Shown here: piece after piece, positions 20,358 through 46,000 of the stretch | How positions within the stretch are numbered: position 1 is the first letter of the stretch | Layout of the letters: every line of letters begins with the position of its first letter | From: Muricea muricata | Lineage: Eukaryota; Cnidaria; Anthozoa; Malacalcyonacea; Plexauridae | Reading direction: 5' to 3' | DNA: 64,000 nt | Assembly (NCBI GenBank): GCA_963855995.1 | Contig: OY979716.1 | Coordinates: forward strand, 49,857,379-49,921,378 | Made by a program: the position numbers and the translations under genes | Notes under the pieces: model-generated | The model's input: only the letters and a program-made list of their open reading frames with translations | What the model was told of the DNA's origin: nothing | Databases searched by the model: none

Positions 20358-20364
20358 CTGTATT
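20358..20364. repeat. Target-site duplication, left copy (CTGTATT)
   Basis: CTGTATT immediately precedes the left terminal repeat. The identical heptamer follows the right terminal repeat at 45994-46000. Confidence 0.8.
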
Positions 20365-20457
20365 CACCCGTGTCACAAATTCTCAACCTCTATTATAGCA
20401 AATTTCTCAATTGAGAAACTGTGTATTATAGGCCTTAGATGGTCATCTGAGCCATCT
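20365..20457 (+). repeat. KDZ element left terminal inverted repeat (93 bp)
   Basis: Begins CACCCGTGTCACAAATTCTC and ends in GTCATCTGAGCCATCT. It contains the perfect 16-bp palindrome TTTCTCAATTGAGAAA and the inverted pair AGATGG/CCATCT, either of which could be a binding site for the transposase or the HMG/homeodomain protein. The start codon of the HMG gene lies 188 bp inside it, so the repeat may contain or adjoin that gene's promoter. Confidence 0.85.
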
Positions 20458-20644
20458 GGCACACAACGCTCCGATGTATGAATATTATACCAAGTATAGG
20501 TGCGTTCATTATATCAGTTTCATTCTTGTTTTCTTGTATGCATTTGTAAGTTCATTTGTATCAATTTTATTATTGTTTTCTTGCTTATCCGTTATTTTAA
20601 ATTTCTATATTACTTCTTAATCTTTCGTGATCACTGATATAAAC

Positions 20645-23600
20645 ATGAGCAGCAGCGGTCGAAATAGAATTTCTGGTGGCCAAAGGAATGTTTTGGAAGC
20701 TATGTACAATGCAGGCATGGTCGGCAGTAGTTTGCTGTACAAGACAAAGATCGACAAAGCGGTAGAAGAAACTGGTTTGACTCCATCCCAAGTCAAGGTA
20801 TCTTTGTTAAACGTTTCTGTCATAAATGCCAAATAGTATGCTTGTTTTCAGAGGTTAATTTCTTACCGATGCTTGTATGTTTGTGTGCATAATTTCCGCG
20901 CGGATACACAATTAACTGATATTCTTATGCAAATTTTACTGTAAATCATGGCGATTTTTTGCGTGTTCACTGTTTGTCGACTTACAATCGCCATATGTAT
21001 TGCAGTAGCTCATAAATTAATCGAATTTAAACGTTAAATAAAAATTACATTGACACTAACAACAAATATATATACAGTTAAAGTACAGTCTGGTATGAAA
21101 AACTAGATTCATGAAGAAACCCGAAGATGCGAGTTCAAATCCCGCTCGAGACAACGAATTTTTCGTTGCTTAATATGAATCTAGTTTTTCATATCTCTGA
21201 GGATGGTTCTGAAATAGAGTTGAAACACTGGGCATCCTCAAAGACAAGCATTAAGTCGTCGTGAAAATATTGGATAAGACTTGCTACCCATTCCAGTTGA
21301 CTCGATAGCTCAATTGGTAGAGCTTTCTTTCTAGAAACCCGAAGATGCGAGTTCGAATCTCGCTGGAGACAACGAATTTTTCGTTGTTCTTTGCAGTTTC
21401 AGATTAATATGAATCTAGTACAGTGTGGAATGAAGTATTTTGCTGCATTTCTGTGCACCACACAATACAACCAGCTGTTTATGTTGTGCCCTACCTGCCA
21501 TACACGTGGTCTTTGGGGTCATTCCCTGTACAGTTTTATTCTGTTCAGTTTATGATTCTGCTGATTCTTCATTGGGTGATACCGCCATAGGGGTCATTGA
21601 TGTACAGGCTTAGAAAATGTTTTTTGCTTAACTATTTAGAATAATTTTTGCCTACTTTGATTTGAGCTTCAAATTTGAAGCTTGCCTGAGGGTCAAGGAG
21701 CAAGTTCACCAGAATATTTCACAAAAAATGCTATTTCCATTTGTGCGCCATTGGAGCACCAAGACTTTTGTGCACCAATATGGTGCACCTTTTGCCTTCA
21801 TTCCATACTGGGTTAAAGTATAATTTTTCAGAAACACCACTTAAATTTATTATTGTAAAGCATTATAATTATTGGCAAGTGGGCAAAAGGCATTGCTAGG
21901 TTTATCCTAAGTCTAAGCCCAATTGATAGTAACTGACCTGTCTCTCTGATTTGGACTTCATTATAATTGATGCTGAATGGTAGCCAAATGTTAAACATCT
22001 GACCTAGAAGTTAGATGTCTTAACAAAGTTTTTAAATACCTGTATACATGTGCACTTATATACCATACGGTACTGTATATATTTTGCAGAAATGGATTGG
22101 TAATTACAAACATGGGAAGAATGTAAATAACCAAGAGAAAGAATGTTCAAGCAAGACCATGAAGAAAGCTAAAGCAGCTAGAGGACCAAGTAGTTTCAAT
22201 TTGTTCTGTAGTGACTTTTTCAAACGTGGTAAGATCATATCATATATGCTAATTTCCATTTTGTTATGATATAATTTGTAATTGTCTTTTATATTGTCTG
22301 TATTTTGAATTTTTTGTTATATGTACAGTTTAAATGTAGCAGTTGAGCTAAGCATCTTTGAAATGAGGAAATTTTAAATACCCATATGTGAGCAAAATAG
22401 CATATGGAAGTAAATTGCACACATTTATTTATGTTCAGTTCTCTTAAAAATTATTTCATATAATTTCTTTGTTTACCTAATTAATGTTTGATACTGTACT
22501 GTACTTGATAATTTTGCAATACCAATAGTCATGAAAAATTCTAGATCCCTGTTAAGAATTTGTTGCTTGAGTCCATTAACAATTTATAGACTAGTCTTGA
22601 CCTATTTGCCCTTGGCCGAGCCTGAAATAATTTTAAAATTTGTCCAGAACAAATACAATTTCGAAATCAAATTTGATCGGAAAATTTCAAATTTGAACAG
22701 GGTATGTTATTTTAGTTTTATCCCCCATTTAATTCCATAAATGATGATTTTGCTCACAACTTTGTATAACTATTAATAGTTTTGTCAAATTTCTTGAGAA
22801 ACTAATCAGTGTGGAAATTGAAACCATTGGCTGTTGAATTTAAAAAGTTTTTAAATTTTTAAAAGATATTGATAACACCAAACATTAATTATAGTATGGA
22901 GGTTAGTAGTTCAGTTGGTATGTACAGTAGGTTGATGGTACAATAATCTCAAGTTAAAATTTACTCTCCTGTTTTATTACTCCAGGTACTGTATGTAAGT
23001 ACCAATGTTGTGCATATTCTACGTACTGGTACATATTGTATTGTTGCAACCAGAAGGCGAGCAGGCAATGAAATCATATTTTATTTTTACGTATTAAAAA
23101 TTTGATTAGTCTTTAAAAATGGGTCAGTGTTAATTATTAATGTAGCTAGTGTTGTTCAATATATCATGAGCTGCACTAGTGTAATGCAGATCGGACAAGT
23201 CTTCATTGGAAGATTATATATGGGTCAAGTTAGTTGCTATAACCATTACTGGTAGTCTGTTATGTACATTTACAGTTACAAGTACTTACTATTTATTTAC
23301 AATTTCACCCAGACTAAATGTGTCTAGGGTTAAATTTTAGGTAGCCAGGCACAGCTCAGCATAGTGGATAACTGTAAGGTGGTATACCTATCACAATTTT
23401 TTTAACTGTTGAAGTCGCTTATAGGGTCTAATATACCTTGTGGTATATGACTGAGAAGAAATTTTAGGAAATGACTGTATATACCAGACCTTGATGTATT
23501 AATTATTAATGAATGAGTATTGCATATACAGATATTTCTAGGTGATACTGACTCATTCGTTCATTTCGGACTACACTGTATTATTAATGGTAGTTAATAT

Positions 23601-26600
23601 TCATTTACTCAGCTTTATGACTTTGTCATAGATGAGTGTAAAGATCTTTCCCATGGTGAAAAAGTACAGAAAGCAGCCACTGAATGGAAGGAAATAAGTC
23701 TTCAAGTAAAGGAAAAGTACGAAAGGTTGTCAACCAGTCTCAAAAATATTGAAGTTGACAAACTGACCGATCTCCAGAAAGACAAGCTAATCTTGCGCCA
23801 CACGAAACGGCTTGTTGAAGAAGTAAGCAATGTACAATGATGTAATAATTCCAGGAAACATGTATAACAAGTGCTCCATTAAGTGTTCTGGAATACTGGT
23901 ACTGAAAGTTTTGTGCCAGTATTTGAGTGTTTTCATGCAAGTGACAGCCAGGAAAGCCTTAGCATAACTTTGGCTTCAACATGATACTGGTACACCAAAT
24001 ACAATATCATTTTGGTTTCATTAATGTACTGGTCAAACTAATGAAGCAGGGAGCTAAATTTACGTTTAATAGCAGGGGCGGCAGAATATCGTTAAATGAG
24101 GGGGCATATTCATATATTCCGGCTTACAAACGGTAAAAACAATCAATTTCCAAAGAAATGAGGTACAATCAGAATATATGAATATGGGCCCCCTGAATTA
24201 ACGATCTTCTGCTGCCCCTCTTTAGTAGCAAACCAACAATAAATTCATTCAATCCGTTCCTTTTTTTTATACTGTTCTACGAATTAAATTTATCTATACA
24301 ACATCAATCCCTAAAGCAGATACATTTGTATACATTTTCGAATAGATAAATATATTGGCAGACCTGGGTTGTGAAGTTTCAACTTTGGTTGTAGACAACA
24401 ATGGCAAAGTCTTGCAAGGTGGATCAAGCGATGGCAACAAATTTCTGTCATCTAATCCTGAGATTGGCATCAAATTTCGTGAATATTTTGGTAAGATTTC
24501 TCTGATGCCTTGTGGGTCGTACATTTAACATAATAAACTACTAACAGTACCTATAGTATTTGGTGTAAAAGTGCTCTTATTAATGCAGTGTGTCCCAGAA
24601 AAAATCCCCCCTTTAGAACTGACACTATTGTTGTTAAATGTGCGTTATTATGTCTCTGGGAATTTGAATTATCTTCTACATGTAAAACGAAGCGCAACAC
24701 AATAATCACGTCAAATTATAACAATGAAAATACTTCTGCCATTCATGTAGACAATTCGTTTAAATTCCCAGAGGCATAATAACACAATTTAGACCCCGTT
24801 TTATTATTTTAGATCCGCATGGTCACGATATCAAATTGAATAGTTCCACGACAAGTGTGGCTCTTACTCTTACGATAGTACTGGCTGTATTGCAGAATTT
24901 AACAAGTACAGTAGTCATAGAAAAAAGTGGTGGAAGAAAACATGACCGCAAACTACCCGAACTCGATGTCGTGACCAAGCGAATCCGGTATCGTCTGAAC
25001 GGGGTCTTAAGAACAATAGAGTGATTTCTAAAGGGACTTTTTTTGGGGCACTGTATATTGGTCCTCTCAAAGTCTCCTTGTGGCGATTTCAAGAACACGT
25101 TTTTGTAAGACTCAGTTTAGTATATGTGCCTGATACTTTCATGTTTATAATGCTTTATTTTTTGTTGATTGCAGGTGACTCGAAACGAAGCTATACCCGG
25201 CAAGATGTGCAAAAACTTTTCAACAGAAAATATAGTGAGTAAAATTCTATTTCAATGTGCAGGATGATACATTCACGATGAGTCACTTTTATCAGGGGTC
25301 ACAGCCGTCAAGATCCATTTCGTTACAATAGAATATATATTTGAAATTTTCTTACAGTAGAACAATTTGATAAACGTAGTGCAGACCGGTCAGTCATTAA
25401 ATTAAACATGCATTAGGCCCTATTTCCTAGTTAGGCCCCCATTTTCGATTCACGCTTTTCCCAGTTTCTCTTGTAAGCCACCATTAACAAGGTTCAAAAC
25501 GAATAATCTCCCTGAATGTTCCGGAATATTAAAGCGCATATGACACGAATCATTCATTTCAGAATCATAAGATTCTTCGTGCAGTGATTATATCGTAGTG
25601 TGCTAAAGAGAATGTTTGGAAGTTTGAAATCGTAGCCATGAGGCAAAAAACTCCTATGCATAGGAACAAATTTGCACCAAACTGACGTCATACTAACGTC
25701 ACTGGCTTTTCCACGAGCTAAATTCAGTGATTGAACGGAACTACATCTCATCAGTGACGTAATTTTGGTGCAATTAGGTTCCCAGGCATAGAAGAGTCTT
25801 TTACTCACGGCTACATGTTTTGATTTTAAAGGATGCAACAGTCCTCTTAGTATCGTGTTTTTCAAAAATAAATGACACTGTGATAATCACTGCCCAATGA
25901 ATTATATATGACTCTGGAAAAAAACTTTTTGAGTCATGTGCACTTTAACAAATATGCTATTCAAAATTGTTCTATAATAGACTCGTTTCTATAACAACTG
26001 ATATTTAATTTAAAGCAAGAAAGGATGGGGAGGCACAGTACGATCTGTATATATTTCAGTGAAGCGTTATTTCCAACACTAGGCCGTTCGCCGTAGTTCC
26101 AAAATGTGGCTAGAAAACAAATTTCATTAAGCATGTCGTGGAACTGAGGTAACTTTGCAGAACATAACTTTTTCAAACACGGGGAGTATGAATCTGAAAA
26201 GTTGCCGCTCCTCTGACCCGCAGTTTTTTCATAAAATCCATTTTAATTCTCACTCTTTCAACACGCTTCAAATAATCTCCCGCCATTTTGAATTCTTCAA
26301 TATTCCGTTTGCAATCGCTCAGAATGGTGATTATTCTGTCCCATGTCCCTCAACTCGCGGTAAATTGTCATTCTAACCGATGGAATTGCTAAAATCATTC
26401 ACTTTGTAAACACATGGCTTCTTACAAAGCTGCTAGTCATGTTTGTGTTGTGAAGTCCATTTCCACGGCAAATGCAGAAATAAAAGAGCTACCAAAAGGG
26501 ATATATTAGCAAAAAATATTGAGACATAAGAAAACAGTGCTTAAACCTATTTTTATCATATAAAAAACTCACAGAAGTCAACGATTCAGGTAATATAAGT

Positions 26601-29600
26601 AAGCTTGAGAGACCTAAAACCACCCTTGCCAATGCTGGTCGAAAACGTTTGTCAGAGGAAAGCATCGGACAACCAGAAAAGTATAACTAATAATAAGTTA
26701 TCAGCCATGTTGTGCTTAAGAGCCAAGTATAACTGCAGCAAAAATGTTGCCTTTGGCTTTGACCAAAAATAGGTAAAATCAATAATAGTGCACCTTCATC
26801 ATGCATTCATTAACTGTACATAACCTCCCAGGATAAATAATTAGTTGACAATTTTTAAATATCAGAGAGTTTTGCAACAATTGTTTTCATGTATTCATTA
26901 AGCGTTAACGCTTGAAACTTCTGTTTTAAATGTTTTGCTCCTCACTTTCCAATAATATTATTAGAACTACAAATAAAATATATATTGTCTTCAATGTGTC
27001 CAGTTACTTCAGTGCACAAGAAACATGAGGTCTGAAACACCAACAGTAACATGCACTAAAACACTTATCAACCTAAGTTGAAAATAAACAGACAGAACAA
27101 TCTTCAATAAAGGGGGTTTTCATCCATACCTCCCATAAAAGAGACACAATTTATAGCTCACTAAGTGACCATTAATTTCACTAAGAGGCTGCTCAATATA
27201 TATAAACAATGCCTGTTCAATATATATAAACAAGGTGACAAAATAGTGCACCGAATATCGTTTTTACAATGGAGTGTTATTGCAGCAGTTGCGATATCAC
27301 TGGTGGGGTAATACCCCCCAGTTACAAGTTGCAAGAGGGTTATCTCTCAAGCCAATGCCTAATTAAATTTTCCTGGAAGGTATCTAGAAGTGAGAGGTGT
27401 TTCCAACATGTTTCCAACCTATGTGTTACATTAGAGTCACATATACAATTGACCCTAATAACAACTGATTTTAAAAGGGAATTGTTGGTGTCCCTTGTGC
27501 ACATTTTCTTCTACTCTTGGCAGGCGAAGTGAAAGCTCTAGCAGGCGTCTTGTTCCTGTTTATCAAAATAATCGAGTTTTTTTTTTGCATCAGAAAAAAC
27601 CAGTAGCAGCTCTACAGTTCTATGCTGGCTATGAAAAGCATGCTATTGTAATACTTTTATCATTACATTATCCCCGAAATCAGAAATCGCTTTTAATAGT
27701 TACAGTCTGAGATACTATGTTGCATTGTGACAACTTCCATTCAAGGTAACCCAGATTGAAAAAAGGCAGATGGAAATGTCATATCTGTGATGTCTAAAGC
27801 CCCGGGCTGTTTACAGATTGAGCAAATTTAGGGAAAAACATTTGAAGATGGATAAGGACAAATAATCTATTACCTTTTTCAGAACTGGAAATAGAATGAA
27901 TTTGTCCGTTGCTTTCCTATTACAAACGTTTTCGTCCAGCATTGGCAAGGATGGCTTTAGCTCTCTCTCTTTAGTTTACTTGTAATAATAGTAAACTTGT
28001 CTGAATAGTAGACTTTTGCGAGTTCTGTTTATGATAAAGACGTATGTAAGCACTGCTTTATTATGTCTCAAAAAATTTTGCTAATATCTCTTCTAATTTC
28101 TCCATTTTTGCCGTGGAAATGGACTTCACACACACAAACATGACTAGCACCTTTGTAAGGAGCCATGTGTTTACAAAATTAATGATTTTAGCAATTCCAT
28201 CGGTTAGAATGACAATTTACCGCGAGTTGAGGGATCTGGGACAGAATAATCACCATTCTGAGCGATATCAAACGGGATATTAAAGAATTCAAAATGGCGG
28301 GAGATTATTTGAAGCGTGTCGAAAGAGTGGAATTAAAATGGATTTTATGAAAAAACTGCGGGTCGGAGGAGCGGCAACTTTTCAGATTCGAACTCCCCGT
28401 GTTTGAAAAAGTTATGTTCTGTAAAGTTCCCTCAGTTCCACGCCATGCTTAATGAAAGTGAACGATATCGGGTCACGGCGAACGGCCTACACGCGATATT
28501 CTTTGAAAAACCTTTGCATCTGATGAAAAAGCTACTTATGTATACACCAACATCCGCGTGATAACATATATACATGTAGAGAATATTACTCTAAACGTTT
28601 GGTGGATCGATGCATATATAATATTCTTGCTGCATTCGTTTGTGAAATATTGTTTTCACCAACTCATATTTCCGAACCATCCTTATAAAATGTTTCTTAG
28701 AGTATTATATGACTGGCTCATTCTTTGAGCGGTAATGAACAACATATGAATGATATTTAGCTCTTTAAAAGAGTTATTAAAATTTTAAAAATGACATTAA
28801 AAAGCTAAAAAGTATTTTACATAATTATAACAAATACCGATGTATTACACATGATCACTAATTTTACCTTTTACAGGTGAAGCCACTGGTAAAACATGCC
28901 GCGTGCCGTATTTAAAAGGAGGTTTTGATGTTGTTGGTATGCCAGAAGGCATCGAATTCAAAAAACCTTACAATTATGGCGCACACCAGCTAAGGAAGAT
29001 TATGGAATCCTCCGGTGATATAGCATTTATTATAAACGAATCCGAGGAATCGCATGAGACAACGTCGTTTCCACCATCCGACGAAATCTTTATGGAAAGA
29101 GTGAAAAACCTCCTACAAAAAATCACGGGACTCGATTCGGCGAAAAAGGCTTTGCAGGATGAAGGGGAAAAGATTTTAGAAGATGTTGAAGTTGTCAACC
29201 TCACTTTGACAGACGAAGAAAAAGCAGTTCTTTACACTGGCGGCTCCGAATATTTCTCGCCTGATGCTTGGCTTGCTGTGGGCCATAATATGCAGCATAC
29301 AACCTGTGCAAATGAACTCGTTTTGCCCATCTACACCGAATCTGAAGAAAAGTTTTGGCTTTTTTTTTTGTCAACGAGAAACCGTCAAAGATATCAAACG
29401 CGGTGTTTTCAACAAAAATAAAAGGAAAATGGCTGGATCTGGGTACCGATGGAGAATACACGGTGATCGACCGTTTAGAAACAATAGTAGGGAAAAATAT
29501 TGTGCGTACTGCTCATGGCCCGTTGTATTTTAATGCTAGTCTAACGTCCGAGGGTAAATATAACTTACCAGATTCTTCAAAGAGTGCAATACTGACAGTA

Positions 29601-29633
29601 CTTAACACGACGGTATTTGATCAATTATCATAA
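20645..29633 (+). CDS. Homeodomain-like plus HMG-box protein of the KDZ element
   Basis: Six exons join in phase: 20645-20797, 22090-22228, 23632-23822, 24346-24490, 25175-25234 and 28877-29633, all with GT..AG borders. Exons 1-2 encode a homeodomain-like helix-turn-helix ending in GLTPSQVKKWIGNYK, where helix 3 resembles the homeodomain WFxN motif. Exons 2-3 encode an HMG box (ARGPSSFNLFCSDFFKR joined to DECKDLSHGEKV, then EWKEISLQVKEKYERL). Exons 4-6 encode an uncharacterised region with TRQDVQKLFNRKYSEATGK, RVPYLKGGFDVVGMPEGIEF and YGAHQLRKIM. A ten-T run at 29360-29369 shifts the frame late in exon 6; conserved-looking sequence continues to the TAA at 29631. Divergent HMG proteins accompany fungal KDZ transposons; a role in binding element ends is an inference. 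Confidence 0.8.
21097..21425. repeat. tRNA-derived interspersed repeat (copy 1)
   Basis: Contains a tRNA-like unit at 21300-21373 (GACTCGATAGCTCAATTGGT = A box, GAGTTCGAATCTCGC = B box) and a second, partial B-box unit at 21115-21150 (CGAAGATGCGAGTTCAAATC). Both are followed by GACAACGAATTTTTCGTTG. Bordered by TATGAAAAACTAGATTCAT and AATATGAATCTAG. The anticodon arm does not fold well, so it is a SINE-type relic, not a working tRNA gene. The longer relative is at 61741-62249. It lies in intron 1 of the HMG gene. Confidence 0.75.
24074..24219. mobile_element. MITE in intron, CAGGGGCGGCAG ends
   Basis: Left CAGGGGCGGCAGAATATCGT and right, reverse-complemented, GAGGGGCAGCAGAAGATCGT are inverted copies; both run into CATATTCATATATTC. 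Flanks are similar (TTTAATAGC and TTTAGTAGC) but offset by one base, so the duplication is not clean. The core GAATATATGAATATGGGCC is shared with the MITE at 40183-40335, giving at least two family members in the window. Confidence 0.6.
24587..25049. mobile_element. Mariner-like MITE containing a smaller nested repeat
   Basis: Outer ends CAGTGTGTCCCAGAAAAAAT and, reverse-complemented, CAGTGCCCCAAAAAAAGTCC resemble Tc1/mariner termini, with TA after the right end. The arms stay inverted through ATTGTTGTTAA/ATTGTTCTTAA, then GACCCCGTT. The left arm is split by a smaller fold-back unit (about 24641-24787) whose arms share TTATTATGTCTCTGGGAATTT. The element lies in the intron between exons 4 and 5 of the HMG gene; the open frame 24836-25024 inside it is not an exon, because exon 4 joins 25175 in phase without it. 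Confidence 0.65.
25533..25944. mobile_element. TTAA-bounded MITE (copy A)
   Basis: TTAA at 25529-25532 and 25945-25948 flank AGCGCATATGACAC and, reverse-complemented, AGTGCACATGACTC. TTAA target duplications suit piggyBac or Kolobok-type transposases. The ends resemble those of the element at 37067-37542. Confidence 0.65.
26080..28489. mobile_element. 2.4-kb element with about 600-bp terminal inverted repeats
   Basis: Left arm 26080-26680 and right arm about 27900-28489 are inverted copies from TAGGCCGTTCGCCGT at the ends to GAAAACGTTTGT inside, with several small indels. Shared blocks include AAGTTGCCGCTCCTC, GAATGGTGATTATTCTGTCC and GTGAAGTCCATTTCC. CAC flanks both ends (a possible 3-bp duplication). 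The 1.2-kb interior contains no recognised gene. It sits in the last intron of the HMG gene and would make a very large RNA hairpin when that intron is transcribed. Confidence 0.75.
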
Positions 29634-29900
29634 TAGCAAACTTCGAATACGAATCAATTTTTTCCCACACGAGTTAAGTTCTCTGAGGCCCCACCCATAC
29701 TACCAGGAGAAATGTAAAAACGCAAAAATATTGAAAAGCATTTGTACTTCGAGTACTATCACCATTTTGCAGAATACATAAATGTGAAGATCATAAAAAC
29801 GATTTCATAATATTTCTAATTCAATATAGTATAGTTTGGCGAACAAATTTTGCGTTTTAGTACATGTTTGTCAATGGACCAGGGGAGGTTAAATTTAGTT
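29634..29900. other. Non-coding stretch downstream of the HMG gene
   Basis: AT-rich, with no polyadenylation signal that I can single out and no other feature. Confidence 0.35.
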
Positions 29901-29904
29901 CATA

Positions 29905-30365
29905 CACGCGTAAAAACGCACGGGTTGTTGCAAGTTGTTGTTGTTGTTAAAAACTGTAATGCCAATTGTAACAAGTTGTAACAAGTCTGTTGACAAGTTG
30001 TCAACAAGCTGTGTTCGCACTGCTTGTTCCGTGTTTGTTGGAACAAGTTTACAACAACTTTTAACAAGCTTGATGGCATTATCAGACCTGTTACAAGGTT
30101 GTCCTAATAGTCCGTTACAGTTACGATTTAATTAGAATGTCACAAGGTTGACGAAACAAGGTCGTAACAATATTGTTGTATCGTGATTGTAACAGATTTG
30201 TTGGATCAACCTTGTGACAAGTCTAAAAAAATCAGCAAGGATGTTACAAGTTGTTAACAAGTTGTTCCACACTTGTACCAACAACTTGGGACAAGCAGTG
30301 CGAGCACAGCTTGTTGACAGTTTGTATGCGGACTTGCTACAAGTTGCAAGATTTTTCAGTGTGTA
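29905..30365. repeat. Inverted repeat rich in ACAAGTTGT/ACAACTTGT words
   Basis: Dense in ACAAGTTGT and its complement. The left half (TTGTTGCAAGTTG ... TGTTGACAAGTTGTCAACAA ... CACTGCTTGTTCC) and the reverse complement of the right half (CTTGCAACTTGTAG ... CTGTCAACAAGCTGTG ... CACTGCTTGTCCC) match, so the unit is a fold-back of about 460 bp with internal palindromes. No coding potential. Confidence 0.65.
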
Positions 30366-31138
30366 GTCATACGCCTAAACTGCATGCGAGCTAGTATATT
30401 TCTAATGTAACTACAGAACACCGATGTCAAAATATCATTTCAGTTGGATATTTTTTTAATATTTTAGGTTATACGAACTTTAAGTTGTGGTTTATATGAC
30501 GTTTTGTATAATTATACTATTGATAGGTGGCTCGATACAGTTTTGAAACAAATTGACTATAGTAGCTTAACATCTTTAATTTTCACGCTGTTAAATTTAA
30601 ATATATGCGTATTCATTTTTTCATGTATTTTAACAGTTTTGATGACCAATGCCCCATTGCTATGGCAACACTCGCGTATGAAATTCACTGAAAAATTATT
30701 ATCTGCATAAGTCATTATACAAGCACCATAGGCTAAATTTTAAAAACTCTGTAATGCCAATTTTTTAAACTGCGAAAATGCTGTTTTCTTGAAAAAGTTT
30801 TTTGGCATCACAGAATTTTTATTTTTTGAATTATACAACATTTTTTTGGTACAATACTGCCAGCAAAATTTGAAGATAGGTCACCGTGCAAAATAAGGAG
30901 ATATAGCATATTAAAATGACGTCAGTAATTAGAAAATCCACATGCAGTTTGCATGCCTTTTTTTATGCGCGAAGTGGCGTCAACATCTCGCATGAAAAAC
31001 AATATTCAATGGTTCAAATACCAAGTCTTTTCGCTGTGTCACTGGCCTGAAAAATAGCTCTTTTAACGCGATCAAGGTAGTTAAAACAAATGTAACGCGA
31101 AGCCAACGTAACGGTTAAGACGACACTAAAATAGAATA

Positions 31139-31564
31139 GGGCCATTTATACGAGCGAAAATAAGCCGCGGCATAAATAGGCCGCGGCTTAAATAAGTCGA
31201 GAACGTCTGTATAAACGTACAATTTCTTTGCGACTATAAAATAAGCCGCGGCCAATTTAAGCCCAGGGTTCGGGCCTCGTCTTAAATTGGCCGCGGCCAG
31301 TTTTAGGTGGGAAAACCTTGTAAAAACGCTTCGTTCGCGACCAAGGCATGTCTATTTATACGATGTCTATTAATATTATTTATTATTAGTTTAGTTTATT
31401 AATATGATGTTCGCGACCAAGGCAAGTCTGTTTATATGATGTGCGAGTGTTTTGGGCAATTTTAATAAATTTAGTAAAACTGGCGTATAAAAGGCTGTGT
31501 TCTCGACTTATTTAAGCCGCGGCCTATTTAAGCCGCGGCTTATTTTCGCTCGTATAAATGGCCC
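31139..31564. mobile_element. 426-bp MITE with TA duplication
   Basis: Ends GGGCCATTTATACGAGCGAA are identical in inverted orientation and continue through AATAAGCCGCGGC, AGGCCGCGGCTTAAATAAGT and CGAGAAC. TA lies on both sides (31137-31138 and 31565-31566), as for Tc1/mariner-type insertions. The arms contain repeated CCGCGG palindromes, a conspicuous GC feature in this AT-rich region. The interior also holds a second inverted pair around GGCCGCGGCCA. Confidence 0.75.
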
Positions 31565-31904
31565 TAATGTTGCCGATGGGTTGCTTGTAGAAGACTTACG
31601 AATGGATCAATCGTAAATAACTTTTAAGTAGATCAAGAGGATATGTTCACATGTAAGCAATTATTTCTCAGCCCAAAGACATAGCCCAAAGACTTGACAT
31701 TAATGTGTCCTTGTGATTTTATACAGCTAGAGCCAGAACAGATGATTATAAAAAGTGATTTCTTTATCTTGCCAATGTTGTAGTCAAAATATGCATTGGT
31801 TACATCTAACGAGCTTAAAATTACATAATTCAGAATAATCCAAGCAAAACGGTCTTTTGTTAAATGTGGAGACTGGTTCACAGGAATTAGTCATTTTAGT
31901 GTTA

Positions 31905-34590: not shown

Positions 34591-34595
34591 CGTGA

Positions 34596-35339
34596 AAGTT
34601 GACTGACTGCCGTTGTGGTAACGGAGAAGTTTTTGGTAACGTATCTCTCTCTTTCTTACAAAACGTCTACGTCAAACGCTGCAAACTGCTAAGTTATTAC
34701 AGAAGACTTGGCTGTTATCCCAATGAAGGAGGAAGAAGAGTAGACACTTGCCTGGCATGTGGCAAAAAGAATGGCAAATGTGATTGCCCCAAAACATCGC
34801 CTTCGTTCTATGTTTATTGCAGGTATCACTGTCCTTTGAAGTTTGATTGCAATAAATGTAAGAAAACATCCGCCGAAAAGAAATTTCACGATTGCTTCGA
34901 CTTTTTCTTTTGTAAAACATGTGATGAATATTATCGAACAACTAAAATGTCGTCATCATGTTTATCGTTATGGAAGGGTATGTAGGGTTCTTGAGTATTT
35001 TTGTAATTTTTTGTTGACATGTTACGTTTATTACATAACTTCAGCGCCACGATTTGTTAAACGTCATACAGTAGTTACAGATTTAGTTACTCTGTAACAA
35101 GCAATATAATTTGAATAATTTAATTATATATTATAATATTATAGTATAATTTGATTACAGCAACTGTGTTAGTACCGCTAGCTTTTATCACTGATATGCT
35201 AAACTTGATGATTGGTAATAGAGTACATACGCTACACACACCCTCGTCCTCTATCGATTCGGCTGTCAGTCAGTATCGTTGCAGTAATCACAGTCATGCA
35301 TCCAAAATGTGTCAACTTTCTCATCGTCACAAGCAGTGA
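34596..35339 (+). CDS. Cysteine-rich (zinc-binding) protein of the KDZ element
   Basis: An open stretch after a TGA at 34593-34595 encodes a protein with many Cys/His pairs: DTCLACGKKNGKCDC, YCRYHCPLKFDCNKCKK and FHDCFDFFFCKTCDEYY, about 125 residues to 34977, consistent with several zinc-binding knuckles. A GT donor (G|GTATGT) joins in phase to an exon at about 35161 that ends in TGA 35337-35339. No ATG is in frame at the beginning, so a short upstream exon is likely or the first ATG is lost. The 3' end overlaps the coding 3' end of the transposase gene on the other strand. Function unknown; possibly a DNA-binding accessory factor. The second exon is less certain than the first. Confidence 0.55.
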
Positions 35340-38300
35340 GAAAGAATGTTTCAGTGGCATTAGAAACGGGAGTGTCAATGATATCTGTCCAGGTATCATG
35401 TAAACTCTGCAGATATGTCTTGTGCATAAGCTGTTTTCTAAGCAGGCAACAGTGTAAGCCTTTGTCGAATGAATTTTCGCAAACGCCTTTTGAAACAACA
35501 TACTTTTCAATTTCTGCAATTTGATACTGGATAAAGTTCTCCAATGTTTTCATTTCCTCCTTGACCATGGACAATTCCTCTTCACATCTATCTTGCAAGT
35601 GCGTCAATTCAACAAGCCTTTTCTTTATGGTGGTTGATACACAATTTCCATCTGGTTCGTTTTCCAGTAGAGAGGAATAGATTGGAAATTGTGGATCTTT
35701 TATCTCCATAAAATCTACCTTGTTTTCACACAAGTCGTTAAAACTGCTAAGCAATCTTTTCATTTCGTTTACTACCTTTCCGATTTGATTCGAAATCTTA
35801 ATGGCAATTGCTTGCCCATCTGAAAAGAAATTACAAGGAATGTTAAAGTGCCCTTGTAATGACTTTAGAGCTGTTAAATTGCTGGCCATGATGTTAAAAA
35901 AGGAAGCGTGTTCCAATAAAAGAAAAAAAACTAATTTGAATTTGACATCATGTCCGTAACTTTAAAGGCTAATAAATACATCAAGACGAATTTCCTGATA
36001 AACTATTTTGCAAACTTTCTCAGAATACCCTAAACTTTAAAAATAAGCAATTTTTACAACTAAAATAATCATGCCGTGAGTATAAAGATCCAATCTAAAA
36101 ACTAAAAAGTGACATTAAATCTGAAGTTATAACGTATATGACATATATCAGTACCTGCTTACTTTGACTTGAGTTCAAGAAGAAACAATCGCTCGGATGC
36201 CATGCGCTGAAGTGTTACTAATATTTTTTGTTTTTTCTTTTCAACTAGCCTCTTCCGTGCATTTTTGAACTGTATGTCATCTTTCACCCATGTCTCCTTC
36301 AACCCGTGAACTTTTTCAACGTTGCTTATTGCTTTAAGATTCCTATACATAATGTTGCAATTGGGTTAAAAAACTGTTTAACCATCAATTAAAAGAAAGT
36401 AAATATCAAATAACGACTTCTGCCCAAAGGCTGCTGCACTATACCTGCTCATCCTGCCTTCAAGATTAGCAACTCATTCTGGCTCTTCTTCTTTGGCGTA
36501 ACGAATCTCGTTGCTAAGAAAACAAAAGTATGCGAAAACGTAACTGAGTAAGTCTTCCTGAGGACATATATGAAGTCTATCTCAACTTACCGGAGTTTTT
36601 TTTTTCTCAAGTAACAATTCCACATAAGATTCGTCCCATTCGTAAGCATCCAGCCCTGGTAAAATAGTAAAATTCTGTTTGTACCAATTGTACGTCTTGA
36701 GAAAAAACTGATTGCTAGTCTTCCTAAATAAATTGTGGTACTGTAGCTGCAAGCACTGAAAATTGTACCTTCTTGTGGTATGACTTCTGTCATCTCTTTA
36801 TCCAGCCACTGTCGCACAGTTTCCTTGTTCACGCCGCCTTCAAATTAATTAATTAATAAGAAATCTCATACTGTACTTTTACATATATACGTATGTACAA
36901 CATTGTAGTACTGTCAAAAGGTGCCTGAATGTACAGTAGCGTACAGTATGCTGCACAAAAAGTGGCAGAAAAGTTACCCATTAAAAGCAATGATATAGAA
37001 TATGTGCATGAGAGGGTATACTTGGAATACGGCGTGGTACATTAGTACATGATACATGAATGTTAAAGTGCCCATGACACCAAAATTTTTATTACATGAT
37101 ATGAAAGAGTATTTAAAACTGTAATACAAGTTCTTTTAAACGTTTGGGCTGCAACGTTTTGTTGATGAGATAGTTCAGTTTGAATTTTTTGTTTTGTCGG
37201 CTAATTACGTCACACTTTGCATAATGAGTTGCTGTTGAATACCAGTTATCTATGTCTTCAATGAGCAAAATTCTCATAATATTGAAAGGATATGTAGATT
37301 AAGGACAAACATAAGCATCCCATTAATGTTGCACGTCGTCTTTTTATAGGAAAACAACTTTATAATCTACTTTCTGATGCCTCATTATGCAAAGTGTGAC
37401 GTAATTAGCCGACAAAACAAAATATTCAAACTGAAATATTTCATCAACAAAACGTTTCAGTGCAAAAGTAGAAAAGAACTTTTATTGCAGCTTTAAATAC
37501 TCTATCTCATTATGCAATAAAAATTTTCGTGTCATGGGCACTTTAAGACATAAGACAGATCATAATTTTTACGTCATTATGTATTTTTCTTGCCACATTT
37601 CTCAGAACTTTTGCCACTATTCCTTTATGGTCAAGCATTGCTGTTACAGTGAGCGTCCTGCTTTAAATACTTACCTGGGAGTTTTGACAACAAATCTTCT
37701 ATTTCACTGTTAACGGTGATACCAAGCGAAGTAGCCTTTTCATGCTTGACCTTCAACGAAACACCTGAATAGAGAATCGTTTCGAATGAATCCACCTAGC
37801 ATTTTACTGTAAAAAACCCTTAAAATAAGAATAAAATAAATACATACCAAAACGCTTAAACAAGTGTTCACCATAGTGTACAGCGGCGTCGGTCAGTACA
37901 TCAGTTCTCTTATCTATCGACATCTCTTTTGTCATTTTTGCAAACTGACCCATAAATGACCATAATCTCTCAACACCTTCTCCATCTGTCAAACCTACAT
38001 TCTTGGATCTTCTTGGGCTATACTTCATCTTGAAAAAGAAGCATATTACCATAAACGTGAATGTGGTATGACCATTGATCACGACGTTTTATCATGTATT
38101 CAAAACTACGATTGGCCTATAAAGTCAGCAATGCATTTTACCTGGCAACTAGCTTTATGGCCATAGCAGTGAAATATCGAGATTGAAAGACTTACACCCT
38201 CCAATAAGTCCTGTCTATTCGAACTCTGTGTCAAGAAAAACATGCATAGTTTAAAACGTACAGCAGTAAATTATAAATCATACAATAAAAAGATTATAAA

Positions 38301-41300
38301 ACAGTGCATGTTTTATTACAAGCCTTTTCATTGGTTGAAATATTCAGGGTTCGTACACCCCTGAAAACCATGGATTTTAATTTTAGTCCTGAAAAACCCT
38401 TGAAACCCTGGAATTCTAAAGTTATTCCTGGAAAACTGGTCGAGTAAAAGAGTGAAAAAGTTCTGGAAAACACTGGATTTTTAAAATTATGAAGGTGTAC
38501 GAACCCTGAATACTTATACAGAAATAACGTCTAACGCGTATGCGAGATGATACACGAATGTTTTGTGTGTAGATTTTACTGTAATTAGAATTTGGTGGAT
38601 ATACTCAATGGGTTATTTGAGCACTTGGAAAGTTGGTAGAGTCCTCACTGTTTAGCACGAGTTGGTCTCGGCTACAGTCAATGCAAAGACGAGGTACAGT
38701 ACAGTACAGTAAATTAAGGTCTTGTACTTATAATGAATACGTCACTGTATTCTGAATATAACATAAACACACACACACTTACGATTAGGTGGTTTGACAG
38801 TATGCATGCAATATCATACATCAGCACGATCTTAAAATTTTTCGAAGACGCTTTACTTCTCAGATTTTCCAGTTCGTAAACTGAATAAGATATTCTACAA
38901 AAGAAGTAAAGTAGCATTTTGCAATGGACCATTCCCCTTTTAGACAAACTTTTGAATAAGGAATATGCATTAGCACAGGTGGAAAGAGCATCCTAAATTT
39001 AGTAAAATGGTGAAGTTTAGTACAAAATATTGCAATATGTGGAAAATATAGTCCTGTGAAGTTTGTGTACTTTTGTATTATGCGCAGAAAAGTGCAATCA
39101 CATTTCGAAAACTGATCACTTGTGGTATCATAATTTAGCTATACTTGCTAACCTCTCTCCATGCTTGATATTCAGAAAACTTTTAGGAAAATCGTGCCTA
39201 CAGACTCTTCCAAATACCCCCTTTTCATCGAAAAGATCATTTTTCCCCTTGCTTCTTAATGCATGGAGAACCTCCCCAGCATGAAATCTGTTACAATCCT
39301 ATCAAACAAAAACCACAGTGTAAAGTTTGATTATTAATTCGATAAAAGAAACTTAATAACCATCATGGAAGTACTACAGTACTACCGTAATGCAGGGTCT
39401 ACCTGAATGGATGTTTTCCCCTGTTTCATATGATAATTATTAACATAATTATCCACGTCATCTTGATCACTAAAAAGGAGAGTACCATTCCTTGGAGCAA
39501 TACTCATCTGGTTGTTATTTCTTTTTGTGACAATCCAAAACAAGCATCAACACATTCAATTAACACACCACATTCCTTAATAATGAAATATAATTGCAAA
39601 AATAAAGCACTTGTATTTTATCTTTAACTCTTTTTGTGTCAACACATAAGCAAGACTAATCTAGTTTAGTTGTTGAGCACTGCAACGCACTGGTGATCCA
39701 GTTTTGGGGCCACTGGAATGCAAATCAGCTTGTGCAAAACAAACCTTGGGACATAAAGGGCACCATTGTGTAAATTTGGTATGAAATGGTCGAGATGCTC
39801 CAGCTTATGTTTAAAATTCCTGGAATGAAAAACCAGATCTTTAGTTTTACGTTTTGCTAAAAAAGTTATAAACAACTTTATATTATGTTTAATCACCAAG
39901 TTTCAACTACAGTATGATTTCAATTCTGTCAACATCATTATTTTACCTATATTCTTCAAAACATCCAGCATTAAGAGTCCTGTATATAGAGGGTATCTAA
40001 ACACAAAAAATGTATAGTAAGTTGCCGAGGACAAAAGAATGGAACAAACTTTAATACTATTATTATATATACTGTGCTAAGTGTCAAAGTTCAATTATAC
40101 TTGCTTCTTATTGGTCAAAAGCATATCATGTAATGGTGAAGATCTCCCTAACAACACATTTGAGTGGTGGACATTACTTTTACAGGGACTGCAGAAGACT
40201 GGTCATTGAGGGGACCAATATTCATATATGTATTATGATTCTGCTCATTAATTTCTTTTGAAAATGATTGTTTTTTCGGTATGTGAACCTGAATATATGA
40301 ATATGGGCCTCAATTACCCATCTTCCATGGTCCCTGTTTTAATCACCGGTGAATAACAAGTTGACACAGCTAAAGTTATGTTTTTCTGTTAAAAACCTTA
40401 ATTAACTGTACATTTTGTGATGATTTGTTGTATTTTTCTTCTTCTTTGACACTTAGGATATAGTAAATACTTATTGACTGTACCCAAGAAAAACAGTATA
40501 GTCAACAAAACATACATACTGTTTCCCCTAGGCACAGTCAGTAAGTATTAACTGACCTAATTAAAGTTAAGCTTCAACTAGCCGCCCCTTTTGGTAAAAT
40601 AAATGTTGGAGTGTTGTGTGTGAAGGTTGTACAAAGTCAAGCCAAAACAGTGCATGTTGCTGGTTGATGGGTAAACAGTTATGCTTTTCAAATATTCATT
40701 CCCAGTATGCATGAAAAGTTACAATTATAAAGAATGCATTTTCTGTGGCATAGCTACCATAAACTTTACATCATATGGTATAATTACAGCACTGGTATGT
40801 GTAGATTGGGCACACACCAATCTAAAAAAGGTACAGCATTGATGGAGCACTGTGGTTTAAAGACTTTTCACAAATGCAAATACCTCCGCAACTTACAGAA
40901 ATCTAGTGTTTGGAGGTCAGCACAGAATTTACCACAAAGTGTAAAAATATTTACCAGTATTGGCTGTAATTTTGGGGCAAGTTCCATGATCATTTCTGCA
41001 AAATCTCTCAATGGTACTTGGTTGTGGAGAAATAAAACAACAGCAAGGTCCATCAACTTGAAATGAAATCCAACCATTGTTTTCTCAGGTGTTCCAGGCC
41101 AATAGTTTGCACAGATCAATGTTTCAGCATGGCTTTCACAGTTACAAACAGCAACACGCTTTAAATGCTGATTTCCTGAAATAAAAAGAGACACATGGAT
41201 AGTTAGTATTATTACACAGTATATGCATGTATCAGTGATGTCTCTGTTGACATTTCGTTGTTAAAAATGGGTTATTAATTAAGTATGCTGTATATTTGGT

Positions 41301-44300
41301 ACATTTGTAAAAAGTATCTTCACTGAGTTGATAGTCTAAATACATCAGTATAAATCATCCCCCATGCCAGCATCTGTAGAATAAACCAGTACCTTTAAAA
41401 AGCTGTTGCAATTAGGCAGTTGCAATAATGAAAAAATATTGAGTATCAAAATTGAGAATCAACAAATTAATATCAATATTTCTGATTTTAATCATGCCCA
41501 GAAAGTTGAGCACAAAATTATTGCAACAGCCTACAGATTAATAATTATATAATTTACGGTATTTATTCACTTACCAAACTCATCAATCAATTTGAATAGT
41601 TTTAAAAATTTGGAGTCACATTGATGCCCATTGTCTATGACACCATGGTTAGGATACAGTGGTAAAAATTTGTTGTTCTAAAGCACAGAAAAACTTGCAT
41701 GAATATGAAATGCAGTGATAATACTACTTAGCATTAGAGCTACACACAGTGGACAAGGCGCTGATTGAAGTAAGGTCCTTGACTTTGTAAATTAATCAAG
41801 TTGCCCTAACTTATTATTAACACATGCCATAAGCAAACACAATGATTACTGTATTTCACTTTGCTTTTCCTGTATTATGAATTGTACATACTGTCGAGTT
41901 GGGTTTTTTTCTTAAATTCATCAAATAACTTTGTATTTCAAAACTCAATGTATGGCAGGGCTCGAAATAGTCAACTGCTAATGGCCAAAACCAAATTATA
42001 TTTTAGAAATAGCAGGTAAAAATAAAGCTGGACTGCCAAATGAAAATAAATAGATAAGTTTGATTTCATTTCACTTCACTTCATTTGATTATTATAATTT
42101 AATTCCTAAAATTGTGTGAGATAATCACTGAGAAACATTAAATTCTTAGCTCAGTAGAAATCTAAATGGTTTTGCTGTCTAAACATGTTTACCTTTGCAC
42201 TTAAATCCAAGATTAGTATTAGTCAAATACAGCAGTTGAGCAGGGAAATAAAAATAAATGTCATGAAAACCCTCATTACCACAATAACGAAGATCTCACC
42301 ATTTTGGCAGTTAAAAATTGACAGGCTAAATGGTATTTAAACTGCAAAAAAAATTACTGTAGCTTGGCAGGTAATATTTTTTTCTCTATGTATTTCAAGC
42401 CCTGGATCAGTTGTTCAAAGCTGGGTTTGTGCTAACCATCCTAACCCTGGGTTAAAGTTTAACCTAATGTTTTAGTTTCTGTATTTCTACAGCTCCGTTC
42501 ATTTAAAAACTTCATTAGCCAAAACTAATATTCATCCAGACAAGGTTTCCAGGTTTATCAATAAGCTGCCGGGACATTTCCTTTGATTTTTGCGTTAACC
42601 CAGGGTTAATCTAACCCACTTTTGAACTCGGCCTGATGTATGGTGTTATTTTTATATTGCAAGAGCAACACACTAATACGTATACAGAACCATGTGAAAA
42701 TTTGTGTGAAATTATAATTGCATGAAGTCCTACTTACCGTCCACGATAGATAGTGTAATGAGAAGGATAGGAAACTGGGTCCTGGGGCGAGAAAATGTTA
42801 TTGTTATAAAAATTTACCAGTCACGTGATCTTAAGGCGACACAAAGTGTTGACAGACCTTAAGCATATATGTGGTTTTAAGTTACAATTTTGTCCTTCGC
42901 TGCCTTTTCGAAGGTGTTTTGCAAATGAAATTTTAAATCTCGACGATGGATCGTAATGAAGAAAGCTCAAGCAATGAAGGAGACGTAATGGAAGCAATGG
43001 TGAATGCGTTAGCAGGAGAAAGCGACCAGAATTTTGACTTGGAAGAGCGCGTTAACTAGGGTGTCGATGAGTGTAATCTCACCAAAAGCTTTCCATGTGG
43101 GCTTTGTTCTAAAGTTTGCAAATCCAAAGGTGGTGACTGTTCCTGCATATGACTGTTCCCGCATACAATTTAATATTGATCCAAATCCCAGATCTACTTG
43201 TCGGATTCTACAAGCGTGGTAACATGAAGGAGAAGCTTACTGACATAAAACCTATAAAGAAACCTGAGTTTGGCCCCAGCCCCCTTGTATGTTGCTGGAT
43301 ATGTCATTTCAAAGATGTATCGCAAAAGTAAAGTTCCTGCTAAGAAAGATATTCCAGAACAACTGGAACTTCAATACCTGCTGTTGAGCATGAAGTCGTT
43401 GCAAGACAATGAATATAATCAATATATAGATTCTGTTTCTGGGGGAAAGCTATGGAATCCTTGTGAGAATTTGTTGGCTATTACTGCTGAATGTGAAAAG
43501 GTGCTCAGGCAACACAGTGCTGGCTTGGTTCGTGAAATCCCACTTCAGCAAGTCAGGGCAGATATTTTGCAAAAGCCCAAGGTCAAGTCTGCATGGGATG
43601 CTATCCTACTCAATGCTAGTTTGGCTAAAAGCAAGACATCTGTGACTGATGTATGCTCGGAAAATATTGTTATGTTGTATGTTTGTGTGCAATCCTTCTC
43701 CTACTCAAAGGATGTTGTTACTAAAATGACCATTAAAGAAGGTGAAATTTCATAAGCAGGCCCTGCGAAAAACACTTAAGACACAAGCAGAGTCAGCTGC
43801 AGTTAAAAGATGTTAGAACATTTTTATTAATGAAATTTTTTTGTTTCAAAACACTATTTTTAAGATGAACAACCCTATAAAATATTAGAATATATTACAG
43901 TATATACATTACAATGCCTGTCTACCATTTCATCACATACACTAGATTGCTACAATGTTTGAATTAAATTAATTACCATATGCCATATTGATGGGGGGTT
44001 TTTTACAGTGGCATAGCCAGCATGATAACCAGGGACCCAGTTTTCATGTTTAGCACAATTCATCTATTTTGGAATCAATTGTTTTTATAGTCTCATTCAT
44101 CTGTAAAGATAAATACATGAGTATGCTCCCCTGCTTGTCAAGCTGGCTATGCCACTGAGCTCTCATTTTGATGCAACCAAAAAGTTTTAGCAAAGTGAAT
44201 AAGTGATCCTCAGTAATTACAACAATGGCATAACATACAATTTCCATATCCTATTTAGTAAAAAAATGTTCAATAAAGTTTTGTAGTCTTTAGAGGCAAG

Positions 44301-45850
44301 TACACTAACTATATGACATTGATAGCATGACAACTCTTGTAATTTAATAAATTGTTTTCAAAGAGAAACCAAAATGTTTTTGTGAATATCAGGCCTAAAA
44401 ATTATCAATTACCAAAATACATACCAACAATATTTCCTTCATCGCAGTTCATGCAATAATGCTAATTATCTCATACTGCAAAAATGTTTCAAGAATGCTT
44501 TAATTACAATCCGAGGCAGATTTTTATACTATTCAGGTATGGAGGGGTGGAGAAATTTTAGGAAGGTGACCAATCAATGGAGATTGAGGTGGTCACTCAT
44601 TGGTTGCTTTTTTGCCTGGGGGGCAGCAGGTGGTTCAAAATATTTTTAGTGAAGTGTTGACAGATTTTGGGAAGGAAGTGTGTACTCCCCCTGGAAATCT
44701 GTCCACAATTGACCGTAAACGAAAAGATAGCAGCAGATACCAAGCAACGTATCCAACTGTTTGACTGGCAAATTCAATGTCGGAACTGCTCCCGTCTGCA
44801 ACCTCTTTCGTACTTTTTCATTGCCATCTTTGTCCGTAAACGGAAAAGTGTCGACAAACTCTGCCTCAAAATGATGCTCACAAAGATATTGTTTTTTTTT
44901 CAAATCGTTCTTTGAGCTCTTTTGTCGGTCAAGTTCGTAGAATGACAGTTTTCCAAGCGTCGCTGGCCTCAGATTTAATTTGTGATGTGTGCTCCGAGTC
45001 CGATGATTTTACATTTAAATAAACTCAAGCCTTCGTATCTTCTGCTCTGCGGACAATTGATTAAAGCGCAGTTTTCTGGCATAACTAGTTTCTTCAGGAC
45101 GACTTTGACGCCAATAATGCCGAATATTAAGCAGGAACATGAATATGTATTATTATACGACAAAGGACAATATATCATTCATGTATACAATGCTTTACAA
45201 TCCTTCTTTGTGTCGGCTTAGGATCATGTGACTTCTCTAATCGGAAGTATCAACATATTAGCCTGCGTATTAGGGTTTATTAAGGAGTTCCTATCCTTCT
45301 CATTACACTATCTATGCGTCCACTTTTCCATCACGTGAAACTGGTTTCTGTCCTCGTGCAGTGAATACGCACAGGTTTCGCAAAAATATTGTCTCGGTCC
45401 ACAGTAGGGACACCGGATCGAAGCGGGCTGGACAAGGCAAGCAACACAAATTTGGTCATCGTTCAGACAATTCTCTTGCAGAAACGCACTCAATATTCGC
45501 GATCGAAGCTTCTCCCAGTTGCAAAACAAGCTTATGTTTCTTTTGGTGTTAGCTGAGCCTTGTTCGCGAAGAGCTTGATGAGCTCCACAGATAGACATTT
45601 CACAATCATCCACGACGTCATTATTTGAATTCGCGCATTCTTGCTCCGTGTTTGTATTAGAACTAGAAACATTCATTGAAGCCTTTCCGGACCTTTCAAC
45701 ATTGAGATCAGTGTGAGTTATAAACGTTCTTTTTCTATCAAAGACTTTTGTTTTCACAGACAGTTGCTGAAGGCACTTCATGATTTCATATAAAAAGACA
45801 AGTTTATTTTTATACAAAACGCTATAAAGCCGCCATTTGCAATTTTTCAT
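35266..45850 (-). CDS. KDZ transposase, about 16 exons
   Basis: Exons on the minus strand: 45850-45317, 41677-41575, 41175-40955, 39996-39947, 39819 to about 39660, about 39574-39403, 39298-39153, 38894-38783, 38225-38142, 38028-37848, 37764-37675, 36837-36769, 36655-36591, 36513-36445, 36342-36163 and 35881-35266. The phases join. Diagnostic KDZ blocks are a CxC-type zinc domain (CVACLVQPASIRCPYCG, FCETCAYSLHED, FHVMEKW), ANYWPGTPEKTMVGFHFKLM, VDACFGLSQKE, GVFGRVCRHDFPKSFLNIKH, VLMYDIACILSNHL (RNase H-fold Asp), IFHCYGHKASCQ and PRRSKNVGLTDGEGVERLWS (catalytic Glu region), then a C-terminal coiled coil. Lesions: insertion 42745-45315 at the exon 1 donor, a frame change in exon 6, a ten-A run in exon 13, and a TGA in exon 14. 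Exon 5's 3' border is unsure. Confidence 0.85.
37067..37542. mobile_element. TTAA-bounded MITE (copy B)
   Basis: TTAA at 37063-37066 and 37543-37546 flank the inverted ends AGTGCCCATGACAC. Long arms share TTGTTTTGTCGGCTAATTAC and CACTTTGCATAATGAG. The end motif resembles the copy at 25533-25944. It lies in an intron of the transposase gene. Confidence 0.75.
38343..38510. mobile_element. hAT-like MITE with TTCAGGGTTCGTACAC ends
   Basis: Left TTCAGGGTTCGTACACC and right GGTGTACGAACCCTGAA are exact inverses. The interior is purine-rich with repeated CTGGAAAA/CCTGGAA words. About 168 bp, intronic, non-coding. The AGGGTTCGTAC end type is common among hAT-derived MITEs. Confidence 0.7.
40183..40335. 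mobile_element. MITE related to the one at 24074-24219
   Basis: Left CAGGGACTGCAGAAGACTGG and right, reverse-complemented, CAGGGACCATGGAAGATGGG. Both lead into CATATTCATATAT. Shares GAATATATGAATATGGGCC with the other copy. The flanks are T-rich and the duplication is unclear. Confidence 0.55.
41956..42404. mobile_element. hAT-like MITE with CAGGGCTCGAAATA ends
   Basis: CAGGGCTCGAAATA at the left and TATTTCAAGCCCTG at the right are inverted with two mismatches. AGCAGGTAAAAATAAA near the left end pairs with TGGCAGGTAATATTTTTTT near the right only as a direct motif. About 450 bp, non-coding, in an intron of the transposase gene. No exact flanking duplication found. Confidence 0.5.
42411..42630. 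repeat. Short inverted repeat element
   Basis: TTGTTCAAAGCTGGGTT at the left and AACCCACTTTTGAACTCGG at the right are imperfect inverses; inside, AACCCTGGGTTAA (42453) and GTTAACCCAGGGTTAA (42593) form a second inverted pair. It abuts the preceding MITE. Superfamily unknown. Confidence 0.5.
42946..43815 (+). pseudogene. Zinc-finger plus AGYVISKMYRKSK-domain protein
   Basis: A start ATG at 42946 opens MDRNEESSSNEGDVMEAMVN to a TAG at 43057. In another frame, FPCGLCSKVCKSKGGD (about 43090-43140) is a C2H2-type zinc-finger N-terminal half of the CKSKGGL type. From about 43275 a conserved block follows: YVAGYVISKMYRKSK, YIDSVSGGKLWNPCENLLAI and VQSFSYSKDVVTKMTIKEGE. This block occurs, as far as I recall, in animal transposon-related proteins. 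Near 43748 the frame changes and continues HKQALRKTLKTQAESAAVKR. Several frame breaks make it a pseudogene. It is the plus-strand gene of the THAP-bearing element, convergent with the THAP reading frame. Confidence 0.5.
44646..45082 (-). pseudogene. THAP domain, degenerate
   Basis: Minus-strand start at 45082 gives MPENCALINCPQSRRYEGLS, matching the C-x(4)-C opening of a THAP zinc-binding domain. After frame breaks around 44975-44900, SDAWKTVILR and then ISLCEHHFEAEFVD (the C-x2-H part) and KRLQTGAVPTLNLP (the AVPT motif region) follow. THAP domains are DNA-binding modules typical of P-element transposases and of some host factors. The catalytic region expected downstream is not visible on this strand. 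Confidence 0.65.
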
Positions 45851-45900
45851 AAGCGCATAATAATAATGTAGTACTCAGGACCTCGCGCATTTCTGACGTG

Positions 45901-45993
45901 AGATGGCTCAGATGACCATCTAAGGCCTATAATACACGATTTCTCAATTGAGAAATTTGCTATAATACAGGTTGAGAATTTGTGACACGGGTG
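45901..45993 (-). repeat. KDZ element right terminal inverted repeat (93 bp)
   Basis: Reverse complement of the left repeat with three mismatches; it ends GACACGGGTG at 45993, directly followed by CTGTATT (45994-46000). The transposase start codon at 45850 lies 51 bp inside it, so the transposase promoter is probably within or overlapping this repeat. Confidence 0.85.
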
Positions 45994-46000
45994 CTGTATT
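45994..46000. repeat. Target-site duplication, right copy (CTGTATT)
   Basis: Identical to 20358-20364. Confidence 0.8.

Follow-up and report, generated by a model that had tools for sequence, protein, structure and literature searches.

Do two inverted repeats lying more than 25 kb apart in the genome of the anthozoan Muricea muricata delimit a single mobile element, and, if so, do the genes found between them belong to it? The question is raised by the 64-kb stretch of DNA analyzed here (the window), in which the outer span from position 20365 to 45993 (25,629 bp) contains a transposase gene of the KDZ superfamily and a second gene, encoding a predicted protein in which a homeodomain-like region, an HMG box and a GTF2I repeat are joined. 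We consider it probable that this span is a single giant cut-and-paste KDZ transposon, which likely carries the second gene as a cargo. A preliminary description of the same DNA had proposed a complete animal KDZ transposon with three genes, and an animal KDZ element with an HMG/homeodomain gene between exact borders is indeed supported; its completeness and its gene content have to be reconsidered in the light of the results presented below.

The ends of the element are the following:
20358-20364, no strand: left target-site duplication, CTGTATT, directly outside the left repeat
20365-20457, plus strand: left terminal inverted repeat, 93 bp, beginning with CACCC (ungapped arm alignment)
45901-45993, minus strand: right terminal inverted repeat, 93 bp (ungapped arm alignment)
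45994-46000, no strand: right target-site duplication, CTGTATT, directly outside the right repeat

The two arms are identical at 90 of 93 positions in a gap-free alignment, and the duplication that directly flanks both of them is perfect over 7 bp, the flanking 8-mers being mismatched at this one site; borders, repeats and duplication are therefore as the preliminary description had given them. The element begins with CA and ends with TG, and a perfect 16-bp palindrome lies inside the left repeat (20403-20418). When up to three mismatches are allowed, the window contains two matches to the outermost 24 bases of the repeat, one at each end of the element, and 100 shuffles contained none. A scan for 14-base terminal repeats with at most two mismatches, accompanied by a duplication, picks out the outer pair together with its 7 bp; this repeat-plus-duplication scan found 17 inner pairs bracketing the left (cargo) gene, none with a duplication of at least 4 bp, and 25 bracketing the right (transposase) gene, among which the biggest duplication is 4 bp. 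The two genes are convergent and start close to the ends, the cargo gene 187 bp inside the left one and the transposase gene 119 bp inside the right one. No subterminal motif longer than 8 bp is common to both ends, and sequence scans of viral and prokaryote contig collections confirmed no relatives of the element.

The transposase gene was delineated on the minus strand by means of its relatives, the closest of which, in a protein database search, are from the octocoral Dendronephthya; the best protein matches thus point to an octocoral as the probable host. Its main features are:
35266-45781, minus strand: KDZ transposase gene of about 16 exons, backed by relatives, with predicted start at 45781 and stop at 35266
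45317-45781, minus strand: exon 1, with an N-terminal Cys/His cluster, its splice donor now parted from the exon by a nested element
40955-41175, minus strand: CxC1-type exon (Pfam CxC1 and alignment to relatives)
39531-39560, minus strand: first Asp motif, IECVDACFGL
38795-38824, minus strand: second Asp motif, LMYDIACILS
37960-37995, minus strand: Glu motif, GLTDGEGVERLW (Pfam KDZ, 5.2e-8)

Assignment to the KDZ superfamily is based on several traits. The Pfam KDZ profile (PF18758) matches two frames of the window, at 1.9e-5 (24.9 bits, under the cut-off of 26.6) and at 5.2e-8 (33.3 bits, over it), and matches the relative P0002 at 1.1e-36. Cys-rich CxC clusters stand beside the transposase core, the CxC1 match being below its cut-off in the window (1e-4, 22.9 bits, against 26.9) and above it in the aligned P0002 (1e-10). 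The D, D and E residues of an RNase H-like DDE core are conserved in the relatives and the window has all three motifs; the core is predicted to adopt an RNase H-like fold, and no significant match to the transposase was returned by Foldseek. Finally, the target duplication, 7 bp at one site, falls within the 7 or 8 bp of the superfamily.

The second gene lies on the opposite strand, and its exons were modeled and aligned with P0056, a homeodomain-HMG-GTF2I protein of D. gigantea:
20645-20797, plus strand: exon 1, with the start codon and homeodomain-like region (model, P0056 aligned; donor gtatct)
22090-22228, plus strand: exon 2, end of the homeodomain-like region and start of the HMG box (model and P0056 alignment)
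23632-23822, plus strand: exon 3, remainder of the HMG box (model and P0056 alignment)
24346-24490, plus strand: exon 4 (model and P0056 alignment; weak acceptor, score 1.0)
25175-25234, plus strand: exon 5, start of the GTF2I repeat (model and P0056 alignment)
28877-29630, plus strand: last exon, with the GTF2I repeat and the C-terminal region (Pfam GTF2I, 9.1e-8; P0056 alignment)

The family is one of 490-aa proteins, and the alignment of the relatives ends near 29.6 kb. The GTF2I repeat (PF02946), best known from the vertebrate TFII-I transcription factors, is present in the cargo protein, and structure comparison indicates that in this family it has the same fold as solved GTF2I domains. 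The same order of homeodomain-like region, HMG box and GTF2I repeat is found in full-length Dendronephthya proteins. Both of the first two regions had been recognized in the preliminary description, but the gene had been only partly seen and the GTF2I repeat missed. Relatives of the family are also present in hexacorals; among them, Pfam finds no GTF2I repeat in P0111 from Exaiptasia and only a weak, partial one (E-value 0.22) in P0107 from Desmophyllum. Loss or gain of the repeat during the evolution of the family may account for this, as may errors in the two gene models.

The transposase is damaged in the present assembly: it carries a stop codon and two frame breaks, called by alignment to the relatives P0001 and P0002, as well as a nested insertion:
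36474-36476, minus strand: in-frame TGA, inside a transposase exon conserved in relatives
39522-39526, minus strand: frame break at an A-run, relative to the relatives
39760-39767, minus strand: second transposase frame break, approximately placed, upstream of a CPLC motif, relative to the relatives
42745-45316, no strand: nested THAP-bearing element, 2572 bp, with its own terminal repeats and the duplication CGTCCAC at 42738-42744 and 45317-45323

The cargo gene has a single frame break, at a T-run in its last exon (29360-29369). Because both genes are broken in this way, the completeness claimed for the transposon holds for its ends and not for its autonomy. Transposase exon 1 runs right up to the nested element, which separates it from its splice donor; on the far side of the insertion a GTAAGT donor is found in phase 0, in agreement with exon 2, and at the same spacing as in P0002. 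The insertion may disrupt splicing of the transposase. Perfect repeats of 28 nt are found close to the ends of the nested element, and the insertion falls exactly at the exon end. It contains THAP exons on the minus strand (2e-8 when the two exon pieces are joined) and, on the plus strand, an open reading frame (ORF) at 43258-43755 for which Pfam and the Protein Data Bank (PDB), the large protein database not being part of this search, gave no meaningful domain match and no solved-structure relative. A THAP domain and terminal inverted repeats are shared with the P superfamily. P elements make 8-bp duplications, and the element is named here THAP-bearing rather than P because its own duplication is of 7 bp. 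The THAP domain was considered as a part of the KDZ transposase and rejected, since it falls within the 2572-bp insertion, which has repeats and a CGTCCAC duplication of its own, and since the GTAAGT donor beyond this insertion agrees with exon 2 in phase and with P0002 in spacing; the nested element is not part of the KDZ element.

Could the breaks themselves be errors of the assembly, so that the transposon is in reality autonomous? Such an explanation, otherwise compatible with a KDZ transposon carrying its second gene, is favored by the position of two of the three frame breaks in homopolymer runs. Homopolymer errors do not account, however, for the in-frame TGA or for a 2.57-kb nested insertion that has repeats and a duplication of its own, and we judge it very unlikely that the damage is artifactual as a whole. 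Even less credit, indeed hardly any, can be given to the view that each 93-bp repeat is a small element by itself, or that the two form a pair by accident, and that what lies between them is ordinary genome containing remains of old transposons. Other transposon-like ORFs are recognizable by eye in the flanks, as this view would have it, but the same 7 bp flank both outer ends, neither repeat taken singly has a visible duplication around it, and the transposase gene begins just inside one of them.

A more substantial objection concerns the second gene alone. The ends and the transposase would constitute a KDZ element, and the homeodomain-HMG-GTF2I gene would be a bystander without any role in mobility, belonging to the host or to another transposon and acquired by nested insertion or by chance capture. 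Several observations lend weight to this possibility and count against a transposon with its own cargo: the element demonstrably contains nested insertions, the D. gigantea relatives of the cargo are not known to lie near KDZ genes, and the family extends to hexacorals, where P0111 has no detectable GTF2I repeat. We nevertheless regard a bystander as rather unlikely, given that none of the 17 inner repeat pairs around the gene has a duplication of at least 4 bp and that its start near the left end mirrors that of the transposase near the right end. Furthermore, all four named anthozoan genera with the cargo family (Dendronephthya, Desmophyllum, Acropora and Exaiptasia) also have a KDZ protein, a co-occurrence weakened by the presence of KDZ proteins in anthozoans with no cargo match and by the origin of the Acropora pair from different species. 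Joint movement of the transposase and cargo genes is likely, but it is deduced from one locus, which cannot prove co-mobility.

How does a giant KDZ transposon with such a cargo compare with known systems? Like Zisupton, it has a KDZ transposase encoded by a multi-exon gene and terminal inverted repeats (PMC12730594; PMC9297572), multi-exon Zisuptons having been described among animals in fish and Pristionchus (PMC9297572). Zisupton, however, makes 8-bp duplications (PMC12730594), against the 7 bp seen here at one site, and a homeodomain-HMG-GTF2I gene is not mentioned for it in the available portions of these sources (PMC12730594; PMC9297572). Kyakuja, a fungal KDZ group, has 7-bp duplications and CA...TG termini without terminal inverted repeats (PMC12730594); duplication and termini are the same in the Muricea element, whereas the 93-bp inverted repeats (90/93) set it apart. 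The TET/JBP domain, considered for comparison with Kyakuja, was not detected at an E-value of 1 in six-frame scans of 21300-45890, scans that spliced genes can escape. The element fits the KDZ superfamily and, because it combines a 7-bp duplication, CA...TG termini and 93-bp repeats, it fits neither subfamily exactly; this comparison is one of descriptions, the transposase tree having contained no labeled Kyakuja, Dileera or Zisupton references.

The size of the element and its carriage of extra genes, presented as poorly described in the preliminary description, are less unusual than they appeared. In the brown alga Ectocarpus giant elements of the KDZ, EnSpm and Sola-1 groups have been found, with KDZ elements of up to 30.3 kb; taken together, many of these families have extra genes, and they show nested insertions and often broken transposases, and an active KDZ element of 31.7 kb is cited for Chlamydomonas (PMC12477816). 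At 25,629 bp, the Muricea element resembles these in exceeding 10 kb and in having an extra gene and a nested insertion; it differs in that their hosts are algae and that a homeodomain-HMG-GTF2I cargo is not described there, as far as the available part of that source extends (PMC12477816). KDZ domains have also been noted in oysters (PMC10546077), and F-box proteins of zebrafish contain a Cys cluster of KDZ type (PMC12062965). As a functional analogy only, the association of a transposase with a separate DNA-binding protein resembles the two-protein PIF/Harbinger transposons, as in Nuwa with its Myb/SANT partner (PMC12730594). Both the transposase family and the DNA-binding protein of PIF/Harbinger are unrelated to those of the KDZ element.

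For fungi, Iyer et al. reportedly described in PNAS in 2014 an HMG-domain protein encoded beside the KDZ transposase; the HMG box of Muricea, by comparison, shares its predicted protein with a homeodomain-like region and a GTF2I repeat, and is found in an animal. Resemblance to the vertebrate GTF2I/GTF2IRD1 (TFII-I) family was seen in the GTF2I repeat: most matches are 47-49% identical to P0056 over 13-14% of its length, and the matches cover only 13-26% of P0056, around the repeat. No report of a homeodomain-HMG-GTF2I cargo on a KDZ element was found in the open-licence literature, as seen in part, subscription papers and Repbase being outside this scope. Giant KDZ elements with nested insertions are thus already known, and what is unreported, within the literature searched, is the homeodomain-HMG-GTF2I cargo in an animal.

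The remaining interior sequence includes:
34596-34985, plus strand: Cys-rich ORF of 128 aa with 16 Cys, likely to be the one meant in the preliminary description
26122-28457, no strand: inverted-repeat element, 2336 bp, inside a cargo-gene intron, with arms of about 330 bp
31939-33648, no strand: tandem array with units of about 167-372 bp, between the two genes
29972-30346, 31137-31566 and 37063-37546, no strand: smaller hairpins inside the element

All three open frames of the preliminary description (KDZ, HMG/homeodomain-like and Cys-rich) exist, but the inclusion of the last in one unit with the other two genes is unsupported. For the Cys-rich ORF neither Pfam nor the PDB gave a match (the large protein database was not part of this search); it lies outside the aligned extent of the cargo family, and its per-codon score is like that of random open stretches (z 0.1), a weak test in which the 11 transposase and cargo exons scored z 0.1-2.3. 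The arms of the inverted-repeat element are 90-95% complementary, and no target duplication was seen around it. A repeat at about 21115-21419 is common to the element and its right flank. When the coordinates of the nested element, the inverted-repeat element, the hairpins, the array and this repeat are summed, secondary sequence amounts to about one third of the span. Two tRNA-Ser(AGA) predictions in opposite orientation (61815-61889 and 62126-62200) fall within the repeat also found at 21115-21419 in the left part of the KDZ element, which is possibly tRNA-derived. Elsewhere in the flanks, long plus-strand ORFs resemble by eye a Helitron-like element with helicase (4597-18122) and the polyprotein of a BEL/Pao retrotransposon (47478-53720).

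As for the mechanism, recognition of the 93-bp ends by the KDZ transposase, possibly mediated by its Cys/His clusters, would be followed by excision of the unit and by its insertion at a cut staggered by 7 bp. The homeodomain-HMG-GTF2I protein, with its three domains of DNA-binding type, would most likely act either on the ends, which carry the 16-bp palindrome, by binding and bending them, or on transcription of the element, by controlling it. Because of the nested THAP-bearing element, the stop and the frame breaks, the present copy appears decayed and would move only with a transposase supplied by another copy. A broader proposal, which we hold to be quite unlikely, is that anthozoan KDZ elements form a two-gene giant class with a homeodomain-HMG-GTF2I end-binding partner, continuing the fungal KDZ-HMG pairing, and that such mobile proteins formed a pool from which the GTF2I repeats of vertebrate TFII-I genes came.

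If the two genes move together, an animal KDZ transposon carries a protein with three domains of DNA-binding type, and the KDZ-HMG pairing of fungi would become a candidate old trait of KDZ elements. The GTF2I repeat would then be placed on a mobile element in corals, and an animal example would join the giant KDZ elements of algae, in which extra genes are combined with nested insertions and damaged transposases; it offers a concrete system for testing whether transposase from other copies is the sole means by which such copies move.
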